A stretch of 64,000 nt of DNA from the NCBI GenBank assembly GCA_036504735.1, contig DASXUQ010000008.1:62001-126000 (forward strand), read 5' to 3'. The stretch comes from a bacterium (lineage in GTDB: Bacteria > Electryoneota > RPQS01). Below the pieces are notes generated by a model that ran no database searches, had not been told where the DNA came from, and saw only the letters and a list, made by a program, of their open reading frames with translations. A program made the position numbers and the translations under genes. This document shows, piece by piece, positions 43,764 through 62,027 of the stretch; position 1 is the first letter of the stretch, and each line of letters begins with the position of its first letter.

Positions 43764-44207
43764 ATGACCACAACCTACAAAGTGACCAATGACGGAGCGG
43801 GGGCCAATCTGCTGCTGACCTTCGAGGTGGACGCCACCGCCAACCAGGACTTCACGCTGACGGATCTTGATAATGGCCTGTGCGCCGCGGTGATTACCGG
43901 CGACAACAAGGTCGGGATGGGCACCGCGGGCGGGCGGCTGATCGGCAAGGTGGTTAAGGTCTCAGAAGAATTGCAGGCGGGCACGGCGATTCCCGCTCTA
44001 TGCACGGTCCAGGTGACGGGCGTGGCCCGCTTCAAGTACGTGGCGACCACTCCGGTGATCGGCAACAAGGTGGAAGTGGACGGTGCGGGCAGGGTGCGGC
44101 AGGCCACGACGGCAACGGACGTTCCCGCCGGCGGCACCAAGCATCGCGGCTTGGTACTGGCGGTGAATACCACCGATACGACATGCGACGTGCTGCTGGA
44201 CGCATAA
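43764..44207 (+). CDS. Phage capsid-cement-like protein (DUF2190-like)
   Basis: ATG 43764 follows GAGAGGAAC. The 147 residues are beta-rich and Thr/Val/Gly-rich: DNGLCAAVITGDNKVGMGTAGGRLIGKV, TVQVTGVARFKYVATTPVIGNKVEVDGAGRVRQA. The pattern of a barrel followed by 'G-N-K-V-x-V-D' resembles small capsid decoration proteins of the DUF2190 type. It directly precedes the probable capsid gene, which supports the call. No signal peptide. Confidence 0.55.
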   Translation: MTTTYKVTNDGAGANLLLTFEVDATANQDFTLTDLDNGLCAAVITGDNKVGMGTAGGRLIGKVVKVSEELQAGTAIPALCTVQVTGVARFKYVATTPVIGNKVEVDGAGRVRQATTATDVPAGGTKHRGLVLAVNTTDTTCDVLLDA

Positions 44208-44222
44208 GCAAGGATGAAGGCA

Positions 44223-44255
44223 AGGCGGGTGGGTAGCGGACTGCCTAACCCGCCT
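44223..44255 (+). other. Hairpin between decoration and capsid genes
   Basis: AGGCGGGT pairs with ACCCGCCT around a 17-base loop. A weak terminator or processing site would let the two structural genes be made at different levels. Confidence 0.45.
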
Positions 44256-44292
44256 CTACAAACAGTTGTTCATTTCACATTTTGAGGTACCT

Positions 44293-45369
44293 ATGACCCT
44301 CGATTTTTCCAACGCGTATCCGTTGCGGGAGAAGATCAACGATCACTCGCGCAGTGCGAATCTGGCGCTGTACGCCGAAGCGCAGGAACGCGGACTGTCG
44401 CTTTCCGAACTGCTCGAAGAGATGGATCCGTCGCCGCGCAAGCCTGACGGCACCCTCGATTGCCCGCTGGACGCCTTTGAGCGGCAACTCTATCTGGCCA
44501 ACGTGATTGTGAGCGGACGCAGCGCAACCTCGCTGGAACAGTTTCTCAGCGGCGCGGGAATGATCCTCGCGCCCGAATATGTGAGCCGCGAAATTCAGCG
44601 CGGCTACCGCATGGTTCAGGATCCCTCCGAACTGGTGGCGGCCTCGGTTCCCGAGCGTGGACCTTCGGTCAAGCCGATCTACATCAAGACGGACCTGGCC
44701 AAGAAGCCTCTCGCCCGCCGCAATGAAGCCAGCGACTACCCGGTAGTGAAGCTGATGTACCGCGAGAAAGACGCCGCCATGGTGGACCGCGGGCGGCAGT
44801 TCGATTTCTCGTACCGTGTGCTGAAGAACCAGAAACTGGCGGAGTTCCGCGTGTTCCTGAACTGGATCGGCGCGGAACTGGCCTTTGATGAGATCAATGA
44901 GATCTACAGTATTATTCTCAACGGCGACGGCACTTCGCCTGCGCCGGCCAACAGCTTCAACGGCACGGCGGGGACGTTCACCTATGGCGACCTCGTGCAC
45001 CTCGCGCTGGCGTTCTCGGGTCCGGCCCATATGACGCATCTTCTTGGCTCCAAGGCGGACATCGAGAAGATCCTCGGCATCTCCGAGTTCCAGGATCCGC
45101 TGGCCTTTCAGGGACATCAGGTCTTCACACAGAGCGGTGACTATCGGACCTTCCTGCCGATCAACACCCGGCTGGTGGTGTGTCCGGGCGCGACGGCCAC
45201 CAAGTTTGCGGCCCTCGACCACCGCTTTGCGATCCGCGAGTCCGTGGCGCAGCCGCTGCTGATCGAAGCGGAGAAGGTGATCTCGCAGAAACTCGAATCA
45301 GCGGTGATCTCCAAGGAGAGCGTCTATACCATCATGGTGGATGACGCGATTGCCTTGAGCGACTACTAA
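44293..45369 (+). CDS. Probable phage major capsid protein
   Basis: ATG 44293 (GAGGTAC upstream) gives 358 residues without a signal peptide. The N-terminal third is helical and charged (REKINDHSRSANLALYAEAQERGLSLSELLEEM). The middle has FRVFLNWIGAELAFDEINEIYSIILNGDG. The end alternates strands (TRLVVCPGATATKFAALDHRFAIRESVAQPLL) with AISKESVYTIMVDDAIAL. This order fits HK97-fold capsid proteins, and the neighbours are terminase, connector and portal genes. No protease gene is seen upstream, so maturation may be absent. The identification rests mainly on context. Confidence 0.6.
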   Translation: MTLDFSNAYPLREKINDHSRSANLALYAEAQERGLSLSELLEEMDPSPRKPDGTLDCPLDAFERQLYLANVIVSGRSATSLEQFLSGAGMILAPEYVSREIQRGYRMVQDPSELVAASVPERGPSVKPIYIKTDLAKKPLARRNEASDYPVVKLMYREKDAAMVDRGRQFDFSYRVLKNQKLAEFRVFLNWIGAELAFDEINEIYSIILNGDGTSPAPANSFNGTAGTFTYGDLVHLALAFSGPAHMTHLLGSKADIEKILGISEFQDPLAFQGHQVFTQSGDYRTFLPINTRLVVCPGATATKFAALDHRFAIRESVAQPLLIEAEKVISQKLESAVISKESVYTIMVDDAIALSDY

Positions 45370-45440
45370 GCAGGGGCGACCCTGCACCCGTATCGCTGCT
45401 TGGTGTCGTAGGAAAGCTGCATGCAGGCAGTAGCTGTAGG
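45370..45440. repeat. Copy of the intergenic CAGGGGCGACCCTGCACCCG module
   Basis: The module follows the capsid stop at once and continues into ATCGCTGCTTGGTGTCGTAGG, a variant of the unit at about 43244 and 37161. The rest of 45370-45642 has no gene. Confidence 0.55.
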
Positions 45441-45642
45441 GGCGTCTTCTGCACCTGAGGCAGTCTCCGGTAGGGGACGGCGCAGAACACACGCATCTCT
45501 TTGAACCTCGCCGTTCCTCCGCCCATTAATCCCCACTCGTTGGAGTCAGGGGCTACTCTAAGACAAAGGGCGGAGGACGGCGGGGCAAAATCCAAAAAGC
45601 TAAAAAATCAACAGCCAAAACGAAAATACATGGAGTCCAGCC

Positions 45643-46011
45643 ATGGTGAATAATACACAATCCTACTTGATGGCGCGGGCGCCGATCTCGACGATGGCGT
45701 TCTCCGGAGCCGTTACCACCGCGTCCATCACTCTGAACGGGGCAGGCGGTCAGAGCGGCACAGGATTTCCTGTGACGCGCCACGGATTTGTTACGGGTCT
45801 GACGGTGTGGGATGGTACGACCTTGCGTACAGACAGTACGGAACTTGCCCTGAGCGCCGGCGACCGGATTTCGGTTTACTGTCAAAGCACCGGCAGCGAC
45901 TACACCGTCCGGGTGCGTATCAACGGCAGCAGCAGCACTCTGCTGCTGACCGGAGTGCCGTTCAATTCCACCTTGTTTGCGACCGTGGAATTCATGCTCA
46001 TCCGCGACTGA
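45643..46011 (+). CDS. Small beta-rich protein in the phage-like cluster
   Basis: 122 residues without a signal peptide: MVNNTQSYLMARAPIS, TVWDGTTLRTDSTELALSAGDRISVYCQS, YTVRVRINGSSSTLLLTGVPFNSTLFATVEFMLI. The alternation of strands and turns suggests a single beta-sandwich, as in head-fibre or decoration proteins. No family is recognised. The role is inferred only from its place between capsid and connector genes. Confidence 0.55.
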   Translation: MVNNTQSYLMARAPISTMAFSGAVTTASITLNGAGGQSGTGFPVTRHGFVTGLTVWDGTTLRTDSTELALSAGDRISVYCQSTGSDYTVRVRINGSSSTLLLTGVPFNSTLFATVEFMLIRD

Positions 46012-46072
46012 GAGCCGTGGCCGCTGGTTTGATGTTCTGAACACTCACCCTATTCTGTCCTGAGGTCTTACC

Positions 46073-46906
46073 ATGTCCTTTACAACCCTGTCTATCGTGA
46101 AAAAGCATCTGCTGTCCAGTGACGCGGGTGCATTGATAATCGAGAATGTACCGGTGACGCTGAGCGGCGAGAGCGAGGTGATGCTGCCGCACCAGAATCT
46201 GGTGGAGTCCAGCGGAGCCGTGAAACTGGATGCGACCGTGCTGCCGTATTGTGACGGTCCCGTGGTCTTGACGGACTATGACAAGACGCGGTTGGCCCTG
46301 GACCGTGTCGTGCCCGGCAGCGTGGTGGTGGCTCTCAGCGCCACTCTGGCGACGGTCTATGTTGAGGAGATCGACTACAAGATGAGCTACAGTGCAGGAT
46401 CGTTGTACCGTGTTCCCGGGGGCAGCATTCCCAACAATCAGCCGGTGTACGTGTACTACGGACGGTACACGATCTACAGCGCGAGCAGCGATTTCGAAAT
46501 CGACTATGTGCGCGGCACAGTGCGGCGCCGGGCGGGAAGCGCGATTCCGGACGGTGCGGACGTGCTGGTGGACTATTCGGTTGCCGCTGGTAGCGTTACC
46601 GATGAGCTCATCAGCCAGGCGATTGTCGAGGCGGAAGATCTGATCATGCGCGCGCTTTCGACGGATTACAATGCAAATTCAACCCAACAGGGTCTGCAGA
46701 CCGGAACCACGCTGCTGGTGCTTTCCGTGGTGGCGCGTGACATGGCCACCGAAACGCTGGGGCGACGCCTGAGTTCGGATGCCAGCGGACGGGCCAAGGA
46801 GTGGCAAAACCTGTCCACGCTGTATGAATCGAGAGCGTGGCAGACGCTGCGGCCCTATCTGGACCGCTTTCCAATGCATGCTCCGGAGCGGCACACCAAT
46901 GGCTAA
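46073..46906 (+). CDS. Head-tail-connector-like protein
   Basis: 277 residues. The first ~175 are beta-rich with repeated YVYYGRYTIYSASSDFEIDYVRGTVRR-like strands. The last ~100 are helical (VTDELISQAIVEAEDLIMRALSTDY, LLVLSVVARDMATETLGRR, YESRAWQTLRPYL), resembling gp6-like adaptor proteins that dock under the portal. It overlaps the next gene by eight bases. The beta-rich N-terminal half is unusual for adaptors. Confidence 0.5.
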   Translation: MSFTTLSIVKKHLLSSDAGALIIENVPVTLSGESEVMLPHQNLVESSGAVKLDATVLPYCDGPVVLTDYDKTRLALDRVVPGSVVVALSATLATVYVEEIDYKMSYSAGSLYRVPGGSIPNNQPVYVYYGRYTIYSASSDFEIDYVRGTVRRRAGSAIPDGADVLVDYSVAAGSVTDELISQAIVEAEDLIMRALSTDYNANSTQQGLQTGTTLLVLSVVARDMATETLGRRLSSDASGRAKEWQNLSTLYESRAWQTLRPYLDRFPMHAPERHTNG

Positions 46907-47162
46907 GCGCATCATCGAGACTCACACTGCCAAATCGCTGACGCCACGGAAGGGTGTGAAGAAGAAGGCGGCGGATCCGGTCAAGGATCTATTAGACAAG
47001 CTCTATGAGCTTGCCATGAAAGACGGCAACACAACCGCGGCGAAGATTTACCTCGATGTCATGCTGAAGCAGAAGGGCGCCGATCCGGAGGCCCTGACGG
47101 CGGAAGAGGCGCTGAAGATTCTGCAGGAAAGCGTTTCGGATAAGCCGGATCACACACGATGA
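46899..47162 (+). CDS. Probable small terminase subunit or packaging partner
   Basis: ATG 46899 lies inside the end of the upstream gene. The 87-residue product is basic at the start (MAKRIIETHTAKSLTPRKGVKKKA) and helical after (DLLDKLYELAMKDGNTTAAKIYLDVMLKQKG). Its stop is followed directly by the large terminase gene. Size, charge and position fit a small terminase, but no DNA-binding motif is clear. Confidence 0.5.
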   Translation: MAKRIIETHTAKSLTPRKGVKKKAADPVKDLLDKLYELAMKDGNTTAAKIYLDVMLKQKGADPEALTAEEALKILQESVSDKPDHTR

Positions 47163-48644
47163 ATGCGAAATGAGAGATCTATGAAAGCCTCCGATTTCTA
47201 TACGATGATCCGGGTCTCGCAGGACCCTTGGGCATTTCTGACGGAGTTTGTGAAGACGCAGGATCCGGCGCGCGGTGTGGCGGCCTTTCCGGATTATCCC
47301 TACCTGCACGATCTGATGGAGGCAACATTGCAGGAGCGGTTGCTGCTGGTGCCCAAATCACGGCAGATGCTAGTGACATGGTCGATGGTGGCGCTATCCG
47401 TGTGGCGGGCGCTGTTTCGCGACGCGGGGTTGTATCTGTTTCTCTCGCGCAATGAGCGCTGCGCCGAGGAACTGATTGACCGCGCGCGGTTTATTGTCAG
47501 TCACCTGCCGCCGTACATGCAGCCGAGGCTTACCGTCAACTCACGCGAGGAGATTGCTTTCGGAAAGTACGGCGCGCGGATTTTGTCGCTGCCGGCATCG
47601 GCGAACGGGCCGCGCATGTATTCACCCAGCGGTGTGTTCTGGGATGAGATGGCCTTCACACCGTACGATGAGCAGATCTGGGCGGCGCTGAAGCCGGCGC
47701 TGGATAGCGGAGGGACGTTTGCAGGCGTATCGTCGTCGGGTGGAGCGAATAATTTGTTTGCGAGATTCGTGCTGGCTACACTGGATGATTCTGCCGCACG
47801 GGGTAAGGGCACCCCGCGCGGCGAGACCAGACCTCTCTTTCTCCATGAGATAGGGAAGGAGGAGAAGAGGACGAATGGGAGCGCACCGGGCTCGCCGTTT
47901 CATGTGCATCGGGTGCACTATCTGGATCATCCGGGGCGGCAGACGGAGGAGTGGAAGCAGATGGCGGCGGCGGGGTTGTCGCAGACGCGGTGGCGGCTGG
48001 AGCAGGAGATCTCCTTCGAAAGCATGAGTGACCTGGTGTACAGCGAGTTCGATCCGCAAAAGCACATTCTGGCGGAAGAGTGGACGGTGCGGCCCGAGTG
48101 GGATCTGTACCGCACGATAGACTTCGGCTACCGGCATCCGTTTGTGCTATGGATACAGAGAACACCGGAAGATGAGTTCATCGTGTTCGACGAGTGGCAG
48201 GGCTCTGACCGCACCACAGAAGAGATGGTGATTGCGATCCGGAATATCGACTTCGCCCACGGGGTGGCGGAGAACGACATGGTGTGGAGTGCATGCGATC
48301 CGGCGGGGGAGGCAAAGCAGGATACGGGATTGTCCCCGGTGGATATTCTGCGGCGAGCGGGGTTGAAAGTGCGGAATCGGCCGTCGCGAATTGCAACGGG
48401 AGTGGAATATGTCAAATCGATGCTGACGGATGGCCGCGAACGGGTGCGGTTGAGGATCTCGCCGCGCTGCACCAACCTGATTGCGGATTTTGGCCGCTAC
48501 CGCTGGGCACCGACGGGAGACGAGCCAGTGAAGGACGGGCTGTGCGATCACAGCATGGACGCGCTGCGCTACTTCTTTGTGAACTACGAATCGACAGCAG
48601 ATGAGATGCCCTATGCACCAAGGATGTGCGGTGTGGGTCGATAA
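47163..48644 (+). CDS. Phage terminase large subunit
   Basis: This is the DNA-packaging motor. The 493 residues have an ATPase domain with the terminase-type Walker A PKSRQML (64-70), Walker B VFWD161E162MAF and coupling motif SSSGG. The RNase-H-like nuclease domain has ID320FGYRHP and WSACDP, and closes with DGLCDHSMDALRY. All landmark acids are present, so it looks functional. Residues 222-236 (TRPLFLHEIGKEEKR) are encoded by a copy of the intergenic repeat module. The start may be ATG 47163 or ATG 47181. Confidence 0.85.
   Translation: MRNERSMKASDFYTMIRVSQDPWAFLTEFVKTQDPARGVAAFPDYPYLHDLMEATLQERLLLVPKSRQMLVTWSMVALSVWRALFRDAGLYLFLSRNERCAEELIDRARFIVSHLPPYMQPRLTVNSREEIAFGKYGARILSLPASANGPRMYSPSGVFWDEMAFTPYDEQIWAALKPALDSGGTFAGVSSSGGANNLFARFVLATLDDSAARGKGTPRGETRPLFLHEIGKEEKRTNGSAPGSPFHVHRVHYLDHPGRQTEEWKQMAAAGLSQTRWRLEQEISFESMSDLVYSEFDPQKHILAEEWTVRPEWDLYRTIDFGYRHPFVLWIQRTPEDEFIVFDEWQGSDRTTEEMVIAIRNIDFAHGVAENDMVWSACDPAGEAKQDTGLSPVDILRRAGLKVRNRPSRIATGVEYVKSMLTDGRERVRLRISPRCTNLIADFGRYRWAPTGDEPVKDGLCDHSMDALRYFFVNYESTADEMPYAPRMCGVGR
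47827..47870. repeat. Intergenic repeat module inside terL coding sequence
   Basis: CTTTCTCCATGAGATAGGGA and the following AGGAGGAGAAGAG match the intergenic module at about 37100-37132 (CTTTCCCCATGAAATAGGGA, then AAGGGGAGCAGAG) at about 28 of 33 positions by eye. The reading frame stays open through it. Confidence 0.65.
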
Positions 48645-48648
48645 GAAA

Positions 48649-48674
48649 GGGCGGGCCCTTGGAAGAGCCCGCCC
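48649..48674. terminator. Hairpin between convergent genes
   Basis: GGGCGGGC pairs with GCCCGCCC around a ten-base loop, between the terL stop and the minus-strand gene at 48704. Confidence 0.75.
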
Positions 48675-48703
48675 CGAGTGAGGTGCTTTAGCGTGATGAG
48701 CCG

Positions 48704-51700
48704 CTACTGTGCCGCGTGTTCAACATCCATAGATACAGAGTGGAAGGGACTCGGCTGATTCAGCAGTCCGGGCGGCAGTTCGCCACACTGGCGGGTAATG
48801 GCGTAGCGCTTGTAAGGTGCGCTCGTTCCATCCAACCAATAGTAGGAGCCGATGGCACCCACCGAGCCGGATGCGAGCGGCACGAACGTGCTGGGGAATG
48901 ACGCCGTGTGGCTTGTGGTGCCCCAGATCGTATAGAGGCCCAGTTGCGGTGCGTTGAACACAACACGCATGCTCACGCCGTCGGTGAAGAGATCGGCGGT
49001 CACTGAGGTCGCCGTGGGGCAACCGACGCCAAGGCACATGGCGAAGTCCAATGGGATGGCTGCCGGCACGTTGTTCACATACTGCCACGCGGTCCCGTCA
49101 CCGGAATTGGCAGTGGCCCAGAAGAAGCTGCAATTGGGATCGCCATCGCCGGTGATGGAGACCCAACCCGAGGCGAGATTCACCGCCGGATAGAGTGTAG
49201 CGGAATACTCGAACAACGGATATGTGGAGCCGTAGGTGTAGCCCATCGTGCCATTCAGGGTTACATTATAGGTGGCCACGAGAGCGCCGACGTTGCCCGC
49301 GTTGTTCTGGTAGAAGCGGATGTGGAACGGCATGGGATCTTCTCCGCAGGGGGCGTTGCCGCTGTTGAAGTTGGCCCGGAAGCCCCAGAATCGAATTTCG
49401 CCGATGGGATTCGCGACGCCGGAGAAGTCCTCATAATTGGCAAACTGCGTTGCGACATCGCTGGCGTAGCCACCCCAGCCTTCCGTGGGAACGAAGGGAC
49501 GCTGGCTGAACTGGCTGCCTTCGACGCAGTTGGGACGCAGATAGCATGCCGTGGTGCCGCAGGTGGCGTCTTCGGTGTAGACACCGCTCAGTGCCTGACA
49601 GGCTGCATTGGTGATGCCATCCTGGCATTGCGGATCGAGCAGCGTGCCGTAGCAGCACTTGCCCGTGCACTCGGTAATGTTCAGCGTGTAGGAGCCACAG
49701 GCGGAGCTGTAGGCTTCCACATTAAGATAGTAGGTGCCGGGCAGGAGATGAACGCAATGAATGGTGGAGACGCCCACGCCGCCGCAGCCGTCGTCATCCT
49801 GAGCGATAATCCCGTTACAGCAGGAGCTGGTGAGGTAGATGTAGCTGTCCCAGTTGGGAGACGTGCCGCACATGGAGAAAGTCCAGTCGGCTTCACGCGG
49901 GATATTGATGCGCCAGTTCTGATCTTCACTGGGACGCAGCGAACAGTTGTTGACCGCGCCGCAGGTGTTGCCCGTAATGCTGACCGGGGCCATGTAGGTG
50001 CCGTCGGTGTAGCAACCCGAGCAGGGATAGGTGAGCAGGGCGAAGCGATAGGCGCGCGGCGTGGCAAGACCGGAATAGACGCTGGGGCCGAACCACAAAT
50101 AGTAATCTCCAGCGGGGAGACAGGTCCCGGTGGAGTAGGACATGAAGCTGCAGGGGATAGCCGAACCCTGCGCGAGGATTGCGCCTGCGGGGCAGTTCGC
50201 AGCGAAGATGTAGGATGTAATCGGGAATTCACTGAGGGCATTGACCTGCAGAGAGCAGGCTTCGCTCAGGGTGAAGCGGTACCAGTCCGTGTCACGGAAA
50301 CCCGCGTTGGTTGGCGATACATAGGTGAATGCGCTGCCGCAGTAAACCTGCCACGGGAAGACATACCCAAACAGATTGGGCGGGTTGTTCCAATCGCCGG
50401 TGTTGTTGCAGCCGCCATCGGGATCGGTGGCGCCGAAGGTCGGAGACGGAGTCTCTGCGGCTTCCAGCAAGTCGCCGGCCTGGCATGCTTCTGAGCAATC
50501 GTCGGTGATGTTCAGGACATAGGCGCCCGCGTTGGCGTTATAGCCGTCGACGATGATGTAGTAGGTGGTGCCGGCGGTCAGGTTGAGTACGAGACTCGAT
50601 TGCAGGCCGCAGGCGTCATCGTTACAGCTGAGCACCGTGGTGCCGGGGCAGGCGCCGCCGGTGCGCACGTAGAGTTCGGTGTCAAACGAGCTGCCGCAGA
50701 GGGAAATCGTATAGGATCCGGTGTACAGCGGGGTGAGGGTGTAGACCACATCCGGAGCGCCGTTGGCGTACCCGCAGGTGGGCTGAAAATCATCGGTCAG
50801 CCCCGAGGTGTTGCCGTAGTCTGTGTAAGGGACGCCGGGAACGTTGATGGCCGAGGAGCAGTTGTCGCCGACCAGATCCCGGATTGCCAGGGAATATGAG
50901 CCACTGTAATTGTAGAACCCGTCTACAATCACCCAGTAGGTCTGGCCGGCAACGAGGTTCAGATTCAGATAGGACTGCAGGCCGAAGTAATCATCATTAC
51001 AACCGACTTCGGTAGTGCCGGGGCAGGCGCCGCCGGTGCGCACGTAGATTTCGGTATCGAACGAGCTGCCGTTCAACGAAAAGTCGTGCGGGCCCGAATG
51101 GATAGCTGTAAACTGGTAGATAAGATCCGGTGCACCTGCCGCAGTGCCACAGGACGGCTGGAAGTCGTCGGTGTACCCTGCCGTGGTTCCGGAATCATAG
51201 AAGGGCAGACCGACGATGACCGTGACGCTGGAGCAGTTGTCGCCGCCCTGATCGAGGGGATTGCGGCGGGGACGGTTCTCCGGGCGCTGCTCGTAGAGGG
51301 TATTGAGTTGCTGCTTGATGGTGGTCGAAGCGGCTGCGCCTTCGCGGTTAAGCTGCTCTTCAAGCGTGCGAATCTGGCGCTCCAGAGCGGTATTGGGCCG
51401 CTGGGGAGTCTGCGCGCTATGGATCCGGTTTTCCGGACGCTGGGAATACAGCGCATTCAGTTGATCTTTTAAACTGCTGCTGATTACCGGCATGGCACCG
51501 GAGGTCGAGTAAAGCTGGTCTTCGAGTGCGCGGATCTGCTGCTCGAGCGGTGTGCTGGGCCGCTCGGACGGCATGGTTGTGCGAGTGGTGAACAGAGGGT
51601 CGGTGCGAAGAGACTGAGGATTGACAGGGACGGTGGTCGCTTCCGCGCCGGTCAGGGGCAGGAGTTCATCGATGCGCGCGGTCCATGCCGGATCGGGAGT

Positions 51701-51859
51701 CTGGCCGGTGGCTTTCGCCGCCGCGATGCGGGCTTGCAGTTGCTGAATTTCCGCGAGGGGTGATAAGATAGCTCCCCGGTTTTGAGGTGTGTCGCTGGCC
51801 GCATAGGCCAGACACACTGCTGTAACTACCAAAGCGACCAAAATTACAAATCTCTTCAT
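48704..51859 (-). CDS. Large secreted protein with coiled-coil repeats and PPC-like domains
   Basis: 1051 residues with a signal peptide (cut near AYAA). Residues of about 90-205 hold two copies of a helical unit (LEQQIRALEDQLYS...LYSQRPENR and LERQIRTLEEQLNR...LYEQRPENR). Then follow at least two PPC-like domains with DTEIYVRTGGACPGTT and Cys-rich D-D sites, then Cys-rich modules resembling surface or adhesive proteins (CCYGTLLDPQCQDGITNAACQ). No type IX ending is seen. It lies on the opposite strand between terL and the portal gene and looks like a host gene. Function is unknown. Confidence 0.72.
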   Translation of the reverse strand: MKRFVILVALVVTAVCLAYAASDTPQNRGAILSPLAEIQQLQARIAAAKATGQTPDPAWTARIDELLPLTGAEATTVPVNPQSLRTDPLFTTRTTMPSERPSTPLEQQIRALEDQLYSTSGAMPVISSSLKDQLNALYSQRPENRIHSAQTPQRPNTALERQIRTLEEQLNREGAAASTTIKQQLNTLYEQRPENRPRRNPLDQGGDNCSSVTVIVGLPFYDSGTTAGYTDDFQPSCGTAAGAPDLIYQFTAIHSGPHDFSLNGSSFDTEIYVRTGGACPGTTEVGCNDDYFGLQSYLNLNLVAGQTYWVIVDGFYNYSGSYSLAIRDLVGDNCSSAINVPGVPYTDYGNTSGLTDDFQPTCGYANGAPDVVYTLTPLYTGSYTISLCGSSFDTELYVRTGGACPGTTVLSCNDDACGLQSSLVLNLTAGTTYYIIVDGYNANAGAYVLNITDDCSEACQAGDLLEAAETPSPTFGATDPDGGCNNTGDWNNPPNLFGYVFPWQVYCGSAFTYVSPTNAGFRDTDWYRFTLSEACSLQVNALSEFPITSYIFAANCPAGAILAQGSAIPCSFMSYSTGTCLPAGDYYLWFGPSVYSGLATPRAYRFALLTYPCSGCYTDGTYMAPVSITGNTCGAVNNCSLRPSEDQNWRINIPREADWTFSMCGTSPNWDSYIYLTSSCCNGIIAQDDDGCGGVGVSTIHCVHLLPGTYYLNVEAYSSACGSYTLNITECTGKCCYGTLLDPQCQDGITNAACQALSGVYTEDATCGTTACYLRPNCVEGSQFSQRPFVPTEGWGGYASDVATQFANYEDFSGVANPIGEIRFWGFRANFNSGNAPCGEDPMPFHIRFYQNNAGNVGALVATYNVTLNGTMGYTYGSTYPLFEYSATLYPAVNLASGWVSITGDGDPNCSFFWATANSGDGTAWQYVNNVPAAIPLDFAMCLGVGCPTATSVTADLFTDGVSMRVVFNAPQLGLYTIWGTTSHTASFPSTFVPLASGSVGAIGSYYWLDGTSAPYKRYAITRQCGELPPGLLNQPSPFHSVSMDVEHAAQ

Positions 51860-52307
51860 TCCAACCTCTCTTAATTTGGATAAGCGGATATATCATGTCT
51901 AAAAATAAGCAAGCCAAATAGGATTGTCAACAGAGTATTTACAAAAAAGCAAGAATTGGTGGGGGTTCAGCGACGGATTTGTGACTGTATCACTACTATT
52001 CAAAAGAGTTTAGATAATACAAAGATGCCACACGTTGCCGACTCGAAATCACGGTCTGATTTGATGATATAAGTTAATGCTCTGTGCTCGTTGTTATCCT
52101 AGAGCTGGTGGCCGTTCCGGAATGGGCATAGTCTGCCCATCTTTTGGCGGGGGAGATGCCTCTTGCTGGCGCTTAGGCGGGAAGAAAAGATACCGCTCTT
52201 CAGGTTGCGGGCAGCGGTTTAAGGCGACAATGCGGCCGGGAGGCCCGATGGACCAGAATTACCGCAACTGAAGCGGGTTTTTGGAAATCTCAAACTTCGG
52301 AGTTCTT
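51860..52307. other. Gap before portal gene with a possible zinc-ribbon remnant
   Basis: No convincing full gene is seen. A short plus-strand frame at 52077-52271 encodes C-x2-C and KKRYRSSGCGQRFKA, reminiscent of the zinc ribbon of small phage or transposase proteins (Q-R-Y-x-C-x-x-C-x-x-x-F), but several Cys are missing. It ends just before the portal gene and may be a decayed gene. Confidence 0.35.
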
Positions 52308-53657
52308 ATGCTACCATTCTTCAAGAAAGTTATTCAGCGTCCGCTGGTGCCGCCACGGATTACAGCGAAGCGGGCGCCGTCGAACCGGGTGCCGTTTCCG
52401 CGTGGGAATCCGGCGCCGGCCACGGAAAAGCCGACGGTGTCATCCAATCTGTTTACCACCACACTGGATGGGCAGGACTTTGTGTGGATGGGAACCAACC
52501 GCGCGGAGTTCTACCGCTATCTGCGGGATCATGTGCCGATCATTTCGGCGGCGGTGTGGTCGTGGGTGCATCTGTGCGCCACACCTCAGAGCTACAGCCT
52601 CGAAGGCAGTGAAGGCGACAAGGCGAGGGCGATCAAACTGCTCGACGAACTGGAGAAGCGGCTGCTGGAAAACCCGCTGATCCGGCGCGACGGCATCAAG
52701 CAGCTTACCGAGCAGTTTTTCCTTGAGCTGTTTACCGTGGGGAGCTTTGCCGGAGAGATTATCCCGCTGCCGGACGGGAGCGGGATCGACTATTTCCGCA
52801 CGCTGGATCCGGATCTGATTCAGTGGGAGCGTGATGGCCGTTGGAAGCCGTACATCCTGAAAGAGCCGGAGAATCCGTTGCGCACGAACGCCAAGGAGAA
52901 CCGGATCTACCTCAATCCCGACCGGTTCTTTTTTGCGACGCTGGGGGCGGACATCATGAATCCGCGCGGGATCGAGCCCTTTGCCTCCATTCCGTTTGTG
53001 GCGCAGATTCAGGAAGCGATGCTCTCGGACATGGCGCGCAGCGCACGCAACGCGGGCACGCCGCGCATGCAGGTAAGGATCCGTCCACCCAAGGCGCAGA
53101 CGCACGAGAATGAAAAGGAATATCAGGCGCGGATCAACCGCTACTTCGACGACACGGTGCAGCAGTTCACGCGGCTGGAAGCGGACGACAACATCTTTAC
53201 GTGGGACGATGTGGAGGTGAGTATTATCGGCGGCGATATGAACCGAAACTTTACCTGGCGGCTGAACCGCGAGCAGGTGATCGAAGACGTGGTGACGGGG
53301 CTGCGGCTGTTCCCGTGGGTGCTGGGACGGTCCCACGGCACGACCAAGAACTGGGTGGAAGCGCAGTTCAACCTCCTGATGCAGATCGTCGACAGCGTGC
53401 AGAACCTTGGAGCATCACTCGGCAACTGGCTGCGCAATTCGGAGCTGAAGATGAAAGGGATTCCGGTGAGATCGGAGCACGTCTTTGCGCCGAATCAGGA
53501 TCCGTTCCTGCTCTCGCGGATGCAGGCGCACTCGGTGGAGTTCGACACGGTGGACAAGAAGGTCCGCGCGGGGTATATCTCCAAGGATGATGGTGCGCGA
53601 GAGTTGGGATACGCGGCGGCGTTTCGGAAGGAGATTGCAGAAGAGCCAAAAGATTAA
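52308..53657 (+). CDS. Phage portal-like protein
   Basis: ATG 52308 has CGGAG upstream. 449 residues without a signal peptide. RAEFYRYLRDHVPIISAAVWSWVHLCA, then LEKRLLENPLIRRDGIKQLTEQFFLELFTVGSFAGEIIPL and YFRTLDPDLIQW, match the start of portal proteins. WRLNREQVIEDVVTGLRLFPWVLGRSHGTTKNWVEAQFNLLMQIV resembles their helical stem. The end RMQAHSVEFDTVDKKVRAGYISKDDGARELGY is the usual portal closing motif. It is separated from terL by 3.7 kb with a reverse-strand gene. Confidence 0.72.
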   Translation: MLPFFKKVIQRPLVPPRITAKRAPSNRVPFPRGNPAPATEKPTVSSNLFTTTLDGQDFVWMGTNRAEFYRYLRDHVPIISAAVWSWVHLCATPQSYSLEGSEGDKARAIKLLDELEKRLLENPLIRRDGIKQLTEQFFLELFTVGSFAGEIIPLPDGSGIDYFRTLDPDLIQWERDGRWKPYILKEPENPLRTNAKENRIYLNPDRFFFATLGADIMNPRGIEPFASIPFVAQIQEAMLSDMARSARNAGTPRMQVRIRPPKAQTHENEKEYQARINRYFDDTVQQFTRLEADDNIFTWDDVEVSIIGGDMNRNFTWRLNREQVIEDVVTGLRLFPWVLGRSHGTTKNWVEAQFNLLMQIVDSVQNLGASLGNWLRNSELKMKGIPVRSEHVFAPNQDPFLLSRMQAHSVEFDTVDKKVRAGYISKDDGARELGYAAAFRKEIAEEPKD

Positions 53658-61997: not shown

Positions 61998-62027
61998 AAA
62001 AAAGGGCGGCCCGGAAATGAGCCGCCC
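61998..62027 (-). terminator. Terminator for the 62055 gene
   Basis: GGGCGGC pairs with GCCGCCC around a ten-base loop and is followed by six T's on the minus strand. Confidence 0.88.

Follow-up and report, generated by a model that had tools for sequence, protein, structure and literature searches.

Background

Experimentally proven gene transfer agents (GTAs) come from few lineages, why cells keep them is debated, and to our knowledge the well-described ones have tails. Capsid-forming phage-inducible chromosomal islands (cfPICIs) are mobile elements with an integrase and regulators, carrying head and packaging genes and no tail. GTAs are recognised by proteins derived from tailed phages, by endogenisation, often at multiple loci, and by mostly vertical inheritance with host co-diversification; their particles contain mostly random host DNA in a head too small for the whole element, and deliver it to other cells (PMC9662315).

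We analysed a window of 64,000 nucleotides (positions 62,001 to 126,000 of contig DASXUQ010000008.1, assembly GCA_036504735.1) from a genome of Candidatus Electryoneota (PMC10439189), referred to below as G000. A preliminary description of this window had noted a reduced phage packaging module, either a domesticated, possibly GTA-like particle or a decaying prophage. The best reading of the present results is an ancient GTA-like element without a recognisable tail.

The module resembles the GTA of Rhodobacter capsulatus (RcGTA, Rhodogtaviriformidae; PMC9662315) in its phage-derived capsid, portal and large terminase (TerL), vertical inheritance, location at several loci and lysis function, and both have a small terminase (TerS) without a DNA-binding domain (PMC6854486). 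RcGTA differs in having tail genes and proven particles, whereas no tail was recognised in the Electryoneota module; gene order and host phylum also differ, and the Electryoneota module is conserved across a phylum, perhaps three. With the Brachyspira GTA (BhGTA, formerly VSH-1; PMC9662315) it shares a cluster with an endolysin and a scarcity of named viral relatives, and the BhGTA terL, which lies outside the main cluster, recalls the scattered state of two Electryoneota families (f4 and f7). BhGTA, however, has been demonstrated by experiment, bears a tail of 65 nm and is known only within a single genus. Like cfPICIs, the module encodes a head and its packaging machinery but no tail. cfPICIs are mobile, whereas the Electryoneota genes are fixed in the chromosome and passed on vertically.

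Module genes in the window and their surroundings

The features of the locus are listed in Table 1. The cement-like, capsid, TerL and portal genes named in the preliminary description proved to be real and intact, each having PHROGs matches and TerL also matching T4 gp17. Homologues of the cement-like gene lie near the capsid gene across Electryoneota (40-76% identity), and capsid identity across the carriers, 34 of 39 genomes, was 56-85%. HMM searches and structure prediction for the genes starting at 44293, 45643 and 46073 returned a capsid, a beta-sandwich protein and a neck/adaptor-like protein, respectively. The beta-sandwich protein G122 keeps its position between the capsid and neck genes across Electryoneota; a Foldseek search against the PDB gave weak beta-sandwich matches, none of them significant. 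G122 is a candidate head fibre or decoration protein. The model of the third protein (CON), which had been called connector-like, combined beta domains with a C-terminal three-helix domain (AlphaFold pLDDT 81, pTM 0.50; moderate confidence). Its best Foldseek matches, with low TM-scores, were the phi812 baseplate (8e-6) and the YSD1 major tail protein (7e-4), which are consistent with a neck protein without proving it. The small terminase gene stood as described, but its start did not, 46899 being more likely than 46779. The true portal start may be the ATG at 52308.

Table 1 Features of the packaging module and the gene interrupting it (window coordinates)
Feature	Position	Strand	Evidence
CEM, cement/decoration-like virion protein, 147 aa	43764..44207	+	phrog_4588 5e-9
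Major capsid protein, 358 aa	44293..45369	+	phrog_3922 3e-42 (major head protein)
G122, 122-aa beta-sandwich protein	45643..46011	+	AlphaFold pLDDT 88, mostly beta
CON, neck/adaptor-like protein	46073..46906	+	alignment; AlphaFold; Foldseek; phrog_807 2e-6
TERS, short small terminase, 87 aa, without helix-turn-helix	46899..47162	+	profile comparison
TERL, large terminase	47163..48644	+	phrog_2 3e-18; T4 gp17 structures 7e-19
Secreted host protein with PPC domain; its gene splits the module and does not belong to it	48704..51859	-	PF04151 1.6e-6
PORT, portal protein	52281..53657	+	phrog_3753 5e-29
C7, protease-like, 228 aa (contig C8 127562-128248)	65562-66248	+	position; invariant His, Ser
Amidase_2 gene	66289-66675	+	Pfam 2e-11
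XhlA-like holin candidate, 83 aa, overlaps amidase gene	66672-66923	+	weak match
Small membrane protein, 56 aa	66989-67159	+	

In G000 (4.16 Mb, 98% complete) the module spans about 23 kb, and the module genes searched were present as single copies. No counterpart of the candidate scaffold gene of relatives (C12/C20) was found within the window. As previously noted, a minus-strand secreted-protein gene, 3.2 kb in length, splits terL from the portal gene. Secreted-protein genes of the same class lie at the same site in G007 and G010, where, as in G000, they appear as insertions or expansions separating terL from portal (48704-51859 and L065:2384-13062).

The module had been described as flanked by host secretome genes, host-like in base composition and without an integrase, which agreed with our results. 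The flanking genes tested were host genes, encoding type IX secretion cargo, LVIVD and BNR repeat proteins, RarA/MgsA, an AAA+ ATPase and an esterase, and none was an integrase. From 53724 to about 65000 the genes were mostly on the minus strand, and several encode cargo of type IX secretion. The GC3 of the module genes was 0.71-0.80 compared to 0.55-0.79 for other window genes, and GC content likewise matched.

Protease-like and lysis genes beyond the window end

The genes for C7, the amidase, the holin candidate and the membrane protein follow 1.6-3.2 kb beyond the window end, without a change of contig or strand. The lack of lysis genes reported previously was therefore a window-edge effect. 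The Pfam match of the G000 amidase stopped at position 108 of a 131-position profile; whether the protein is active is uncertain. C7 had no Pfam match, and profile searches of solved structures with C7 and the portal yielded nothing useful. Its place between portal and cement/capsid genes in phage contigs, together with the invariant His and Ser, points to a putative prohead protease.

C7 is longer in other phyla and in some phages (L282:6765-8960, L152:2301-4088), the Electryoneota protein corresponding to the N-terminal part of about 230 aa only, and C7 of G092 bears a DNA-ligase-like domain (PF01068, 8e-16). At 12 loci (e.g. L085:16010-16570) C7 is directly followed by small proteins (C13/C47) that seem to have signal peptides, which is unusual in a phage-like cluster.

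Distribution and gene order in Electryoneota

Most of the genomes compared were metagenome bins, and gene calls in the relatives were ORF-based. Among 39 Electryoneota genomes the capsid gene was found in 34, TerL in 33, the portal in 33 and C7 in 35, essentially in single copy. At least one of the four was present in 37/39 genomes, confirming conservation of the gene set in relatives; only G001 (97% complete) and G004 lacked all four. Loss thus occurs but is rare, and since two genomes do without the module it is dispensable. Several absences coincided with the end of a contig or with a fragmented assembly, and in G005 and G023 the portal gene begins near a contig end. Contigs matching the module include those of Electryonea clarkiae, Tariuqbacter arcticus, LCP-89 and AABM5.125.24.

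The usual order was cement, capsid, G122, neck, (TerS), TerL, portal and C7, followed by small secreted, holin-like and amidase genes. The position of the capsid before the terminase, remarked on earlier, is real and kept across the phylum. In family f7 the module genes were spread over tens of kb (54 kb in G017, where they lie on a single contig between 62 and 117 kb). In f4 they occupied separate contigs (in G014 capsid on C18, TerL on C36, portal and C7 on C17), yet they were retained in both families. One capsid frame contained a single in-frame TGA (G031:C85:43098-44153, L090), reflecting either recent loss or an assembly error. In families f5, f7 and f8 an Xre-like helix-turn-helix regulator gene was located upstream on the opposite strand (L084:7718-8155 and similar), a possible module regulator.

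Inheritance and selection

The concatenated module tree of 31 genomes shared 23 of 28 splits with the RpoB tree, compared to a mean of 0.28 and a maximum of 3 after shuffling, and the distances in the two trees were correlated (r = 0.95, Mantel p = 0.001). Every family with at least two genomes formed a clade in both trees. RpoB is one marker and the trees came from a short search.

The dN/dS values (Nei-Gojobori) were about 0.08-0.18 for the capsid, 0.09-0.27 for the portal, 0.16-0.34 for TerL and up to 0.56 for G122; these figures are rough because dS was high and partly saturated. They are well below 1, and by these codon comparisons the module genes are under purifying selection. The landmark residues were intact as stated before: in TerL, Walker B D161/E162 and nuclease D320 were conserved in 38/38 sequences, D379 in 35/36 and D466 in 36/36, and a Walker A segment of a deviant KSRQ type was kept in 37/38. 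Neither a full prophage at this place in related genomes nor disabling mutations across the set were found.

Truncation of the small terminase

When the TerS proteins of families f1 and f2 (68-91 aa, window included) were used as a profile, matches to the longer TerS of f7 and of the sister phylum were confined to some 55 C-terminal residues (9e-15 to 8e-8). The longer proteins carry an N-terminal helix-turn-helix (HTH), matching PF13022 at 3.5e-14 to 1e-7 in the sister phylum and giving weaker HTH matches in f7. TerS lacks the HTH in f1 and f2, the window included, and retains it in f7 and the sister phylum. No TerS reading frame was present before terL in f3 and f5. For RcGTA, the absence of the DNA-binding domain was proposed to remove sequence specificity and to define a GTA-type TerS (PMC6854486).

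Proposed function and alternative explanations

Phage descent is apparent from the PHROGs and PDB matches of capsid, portal and TerL, endogenisation from single-copy chromosomal genes with host flanks that are scattered in f4 and f7, and co-diversification from the agreement with RpoB. On these three features the module is named GTA-like here and not a proven GTA. For random packaging of host DNA, the TerS truncation offers indirect support only.

It is likely that the head and packaging genes of a tailed phage were acquired before the Electryoneota radiated and were kept as a host trait, packaging host DNA in a GTA-like manner. Retention throughout nearly the whole phylum suggests that the bacteria use the module themselves, most likely for packaging and sharing their own DNA. 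The domesticated, GTA-like particle considered in the preliminary description is strongly supported by conservation, host co-diversification, purifying selection and TerS truncation. The module would be expressed by a subset of cells, in which capsid, cement protein and protease-like C7 would build and mature a head. TerL would fill the head with host DNA taken at random via the portal, helped in this lineage by a TerS without the sequence-reading domain, and CON would close or extend the neck. The holin-like proteins and the amidase could then lyse the cell and release the particles. Since a tape-measure gene was not detected, recipient cells would need a minimal neck/fibre of module proteins or host uptake machinery to take up the DNA, and the host would presumably benefit from this exchange.

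A head module domesticated for a use other than transfer, such as anti-phage interference, supplying biofilm with exported DNA or forming a compartment for storage, appears unlikely, although no tail parts for delivery were found and the host retains the head genes whatever their linkage. The portal and the TerL ATPase and nuclease residues are conserved, and therefore DNA packaging itself appears to be selected; the linked lysis genes point to release, and the truncated TerS fits packaging without choice of sequence.

As judged from one tape-measure model (TIGR01760) and inspection of the neighbouring genes, the earlier impression that the locus has no tail held: the model had no match anywhere in G000, and no tail gene was recognised among the neighbouring genes. 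The same model scored above cut-off in 8/39 Electryoneota genomes, always on contigs other than that of the module, which would suit mixed particles with heads from the module and tails from other prophages in the same cell. As G000 is without a detectable tape-measure gene, borrowed prophage tails are not the general mechanism, and we regard such particles as very improbable. Equally hard to credit is a capsid-forming satellite that makes its own heads, uses helper-phage tails and spreads itself. The module's content of capsid, protease-like, portal, terminase and adaptor genes without a tail resembles that of cfPICIs, but a mobile satellite was rejected on the lack of an integrase in the flanks examined and on vertical inheritance at phylum depth, and the genes are scattered over separate contigs. 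A decaying or recently inserted prophage, the other reading of the preliminary description, would explain an incomplete phage gene set broken by host genes and missing from two genomes, but it is scarcely conceivable and was ruled out by intact genes conserved across the phylum, dN/dS, a host-congruent tree and host-like composition. An intact temperate prophage was also rejected, as no integrase, replication or tail genes were seen among the tested flanking genes and G000 has no tape measure.

Homologues in other phyla and among phages

Outside Electryoneota, the capsid profile found 13 carriers among 347 genomes. In centred searches, the capsid was present in 42/49 genomes around G333 (phylum X, which may be Zixibacteria, a guess from sequence motifs) and in 4/6 around G235 (phylum Y, the sister phylum). 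The clusters of phylum X were compact, with portal, TerL, C7, cement, capsid, a 474-aa protein and neck, and contained no tape measure. No earlier description of the module in Electryoneota or Zixibacteria was found in the open-access literature searched; description elsewhere is possible.

In the capsid tree Electryoneota paired with phylum Y, phylum X joined this pair, and the phage homologues fell outside (support 94); the closest named-phage homologues found had only 20-31% identity. In the RpoB tree Electryoneota grouped with phylum Y, and phylum X was nearby but beside some non-carriers. The two trees agree on ((Electryoneota, Y), X). This pattern fits one old capture with losses, and separate captures from related phages may also account for it. 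The capture probably predates the split of Electryoneota and the sister phylum. Going further, we tentatively propose, at slightly short of even chances, that a phage head-and-packaging module was domesticated once, in an ancestor shared by at least two and perhaps three phyla of the FCB group, and has since been retained as a tailless system of DNA-packaging particles.

A packaging system passed down vertically throughout a phylum, and with counterparts elsewhere, would make such elements older and wider than thought, and one of single origin would, if true, be among the oldest and taxonomically broadest GTA-like systems. It would offer many lineages for testing what selection keeps, repeated losses of the sequence-reading TerS domain included, and would account for some 'viral' contigs as chromosomal genes. 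Two contigs filed as viral in IMG/VR (L129 and L130) carry the module and are placed by the capsid tree within bacterial clades, with L130 and G333 having nearly identical capsids; both IMG/VR contigs are probably chromosome pieces filed as viruses.
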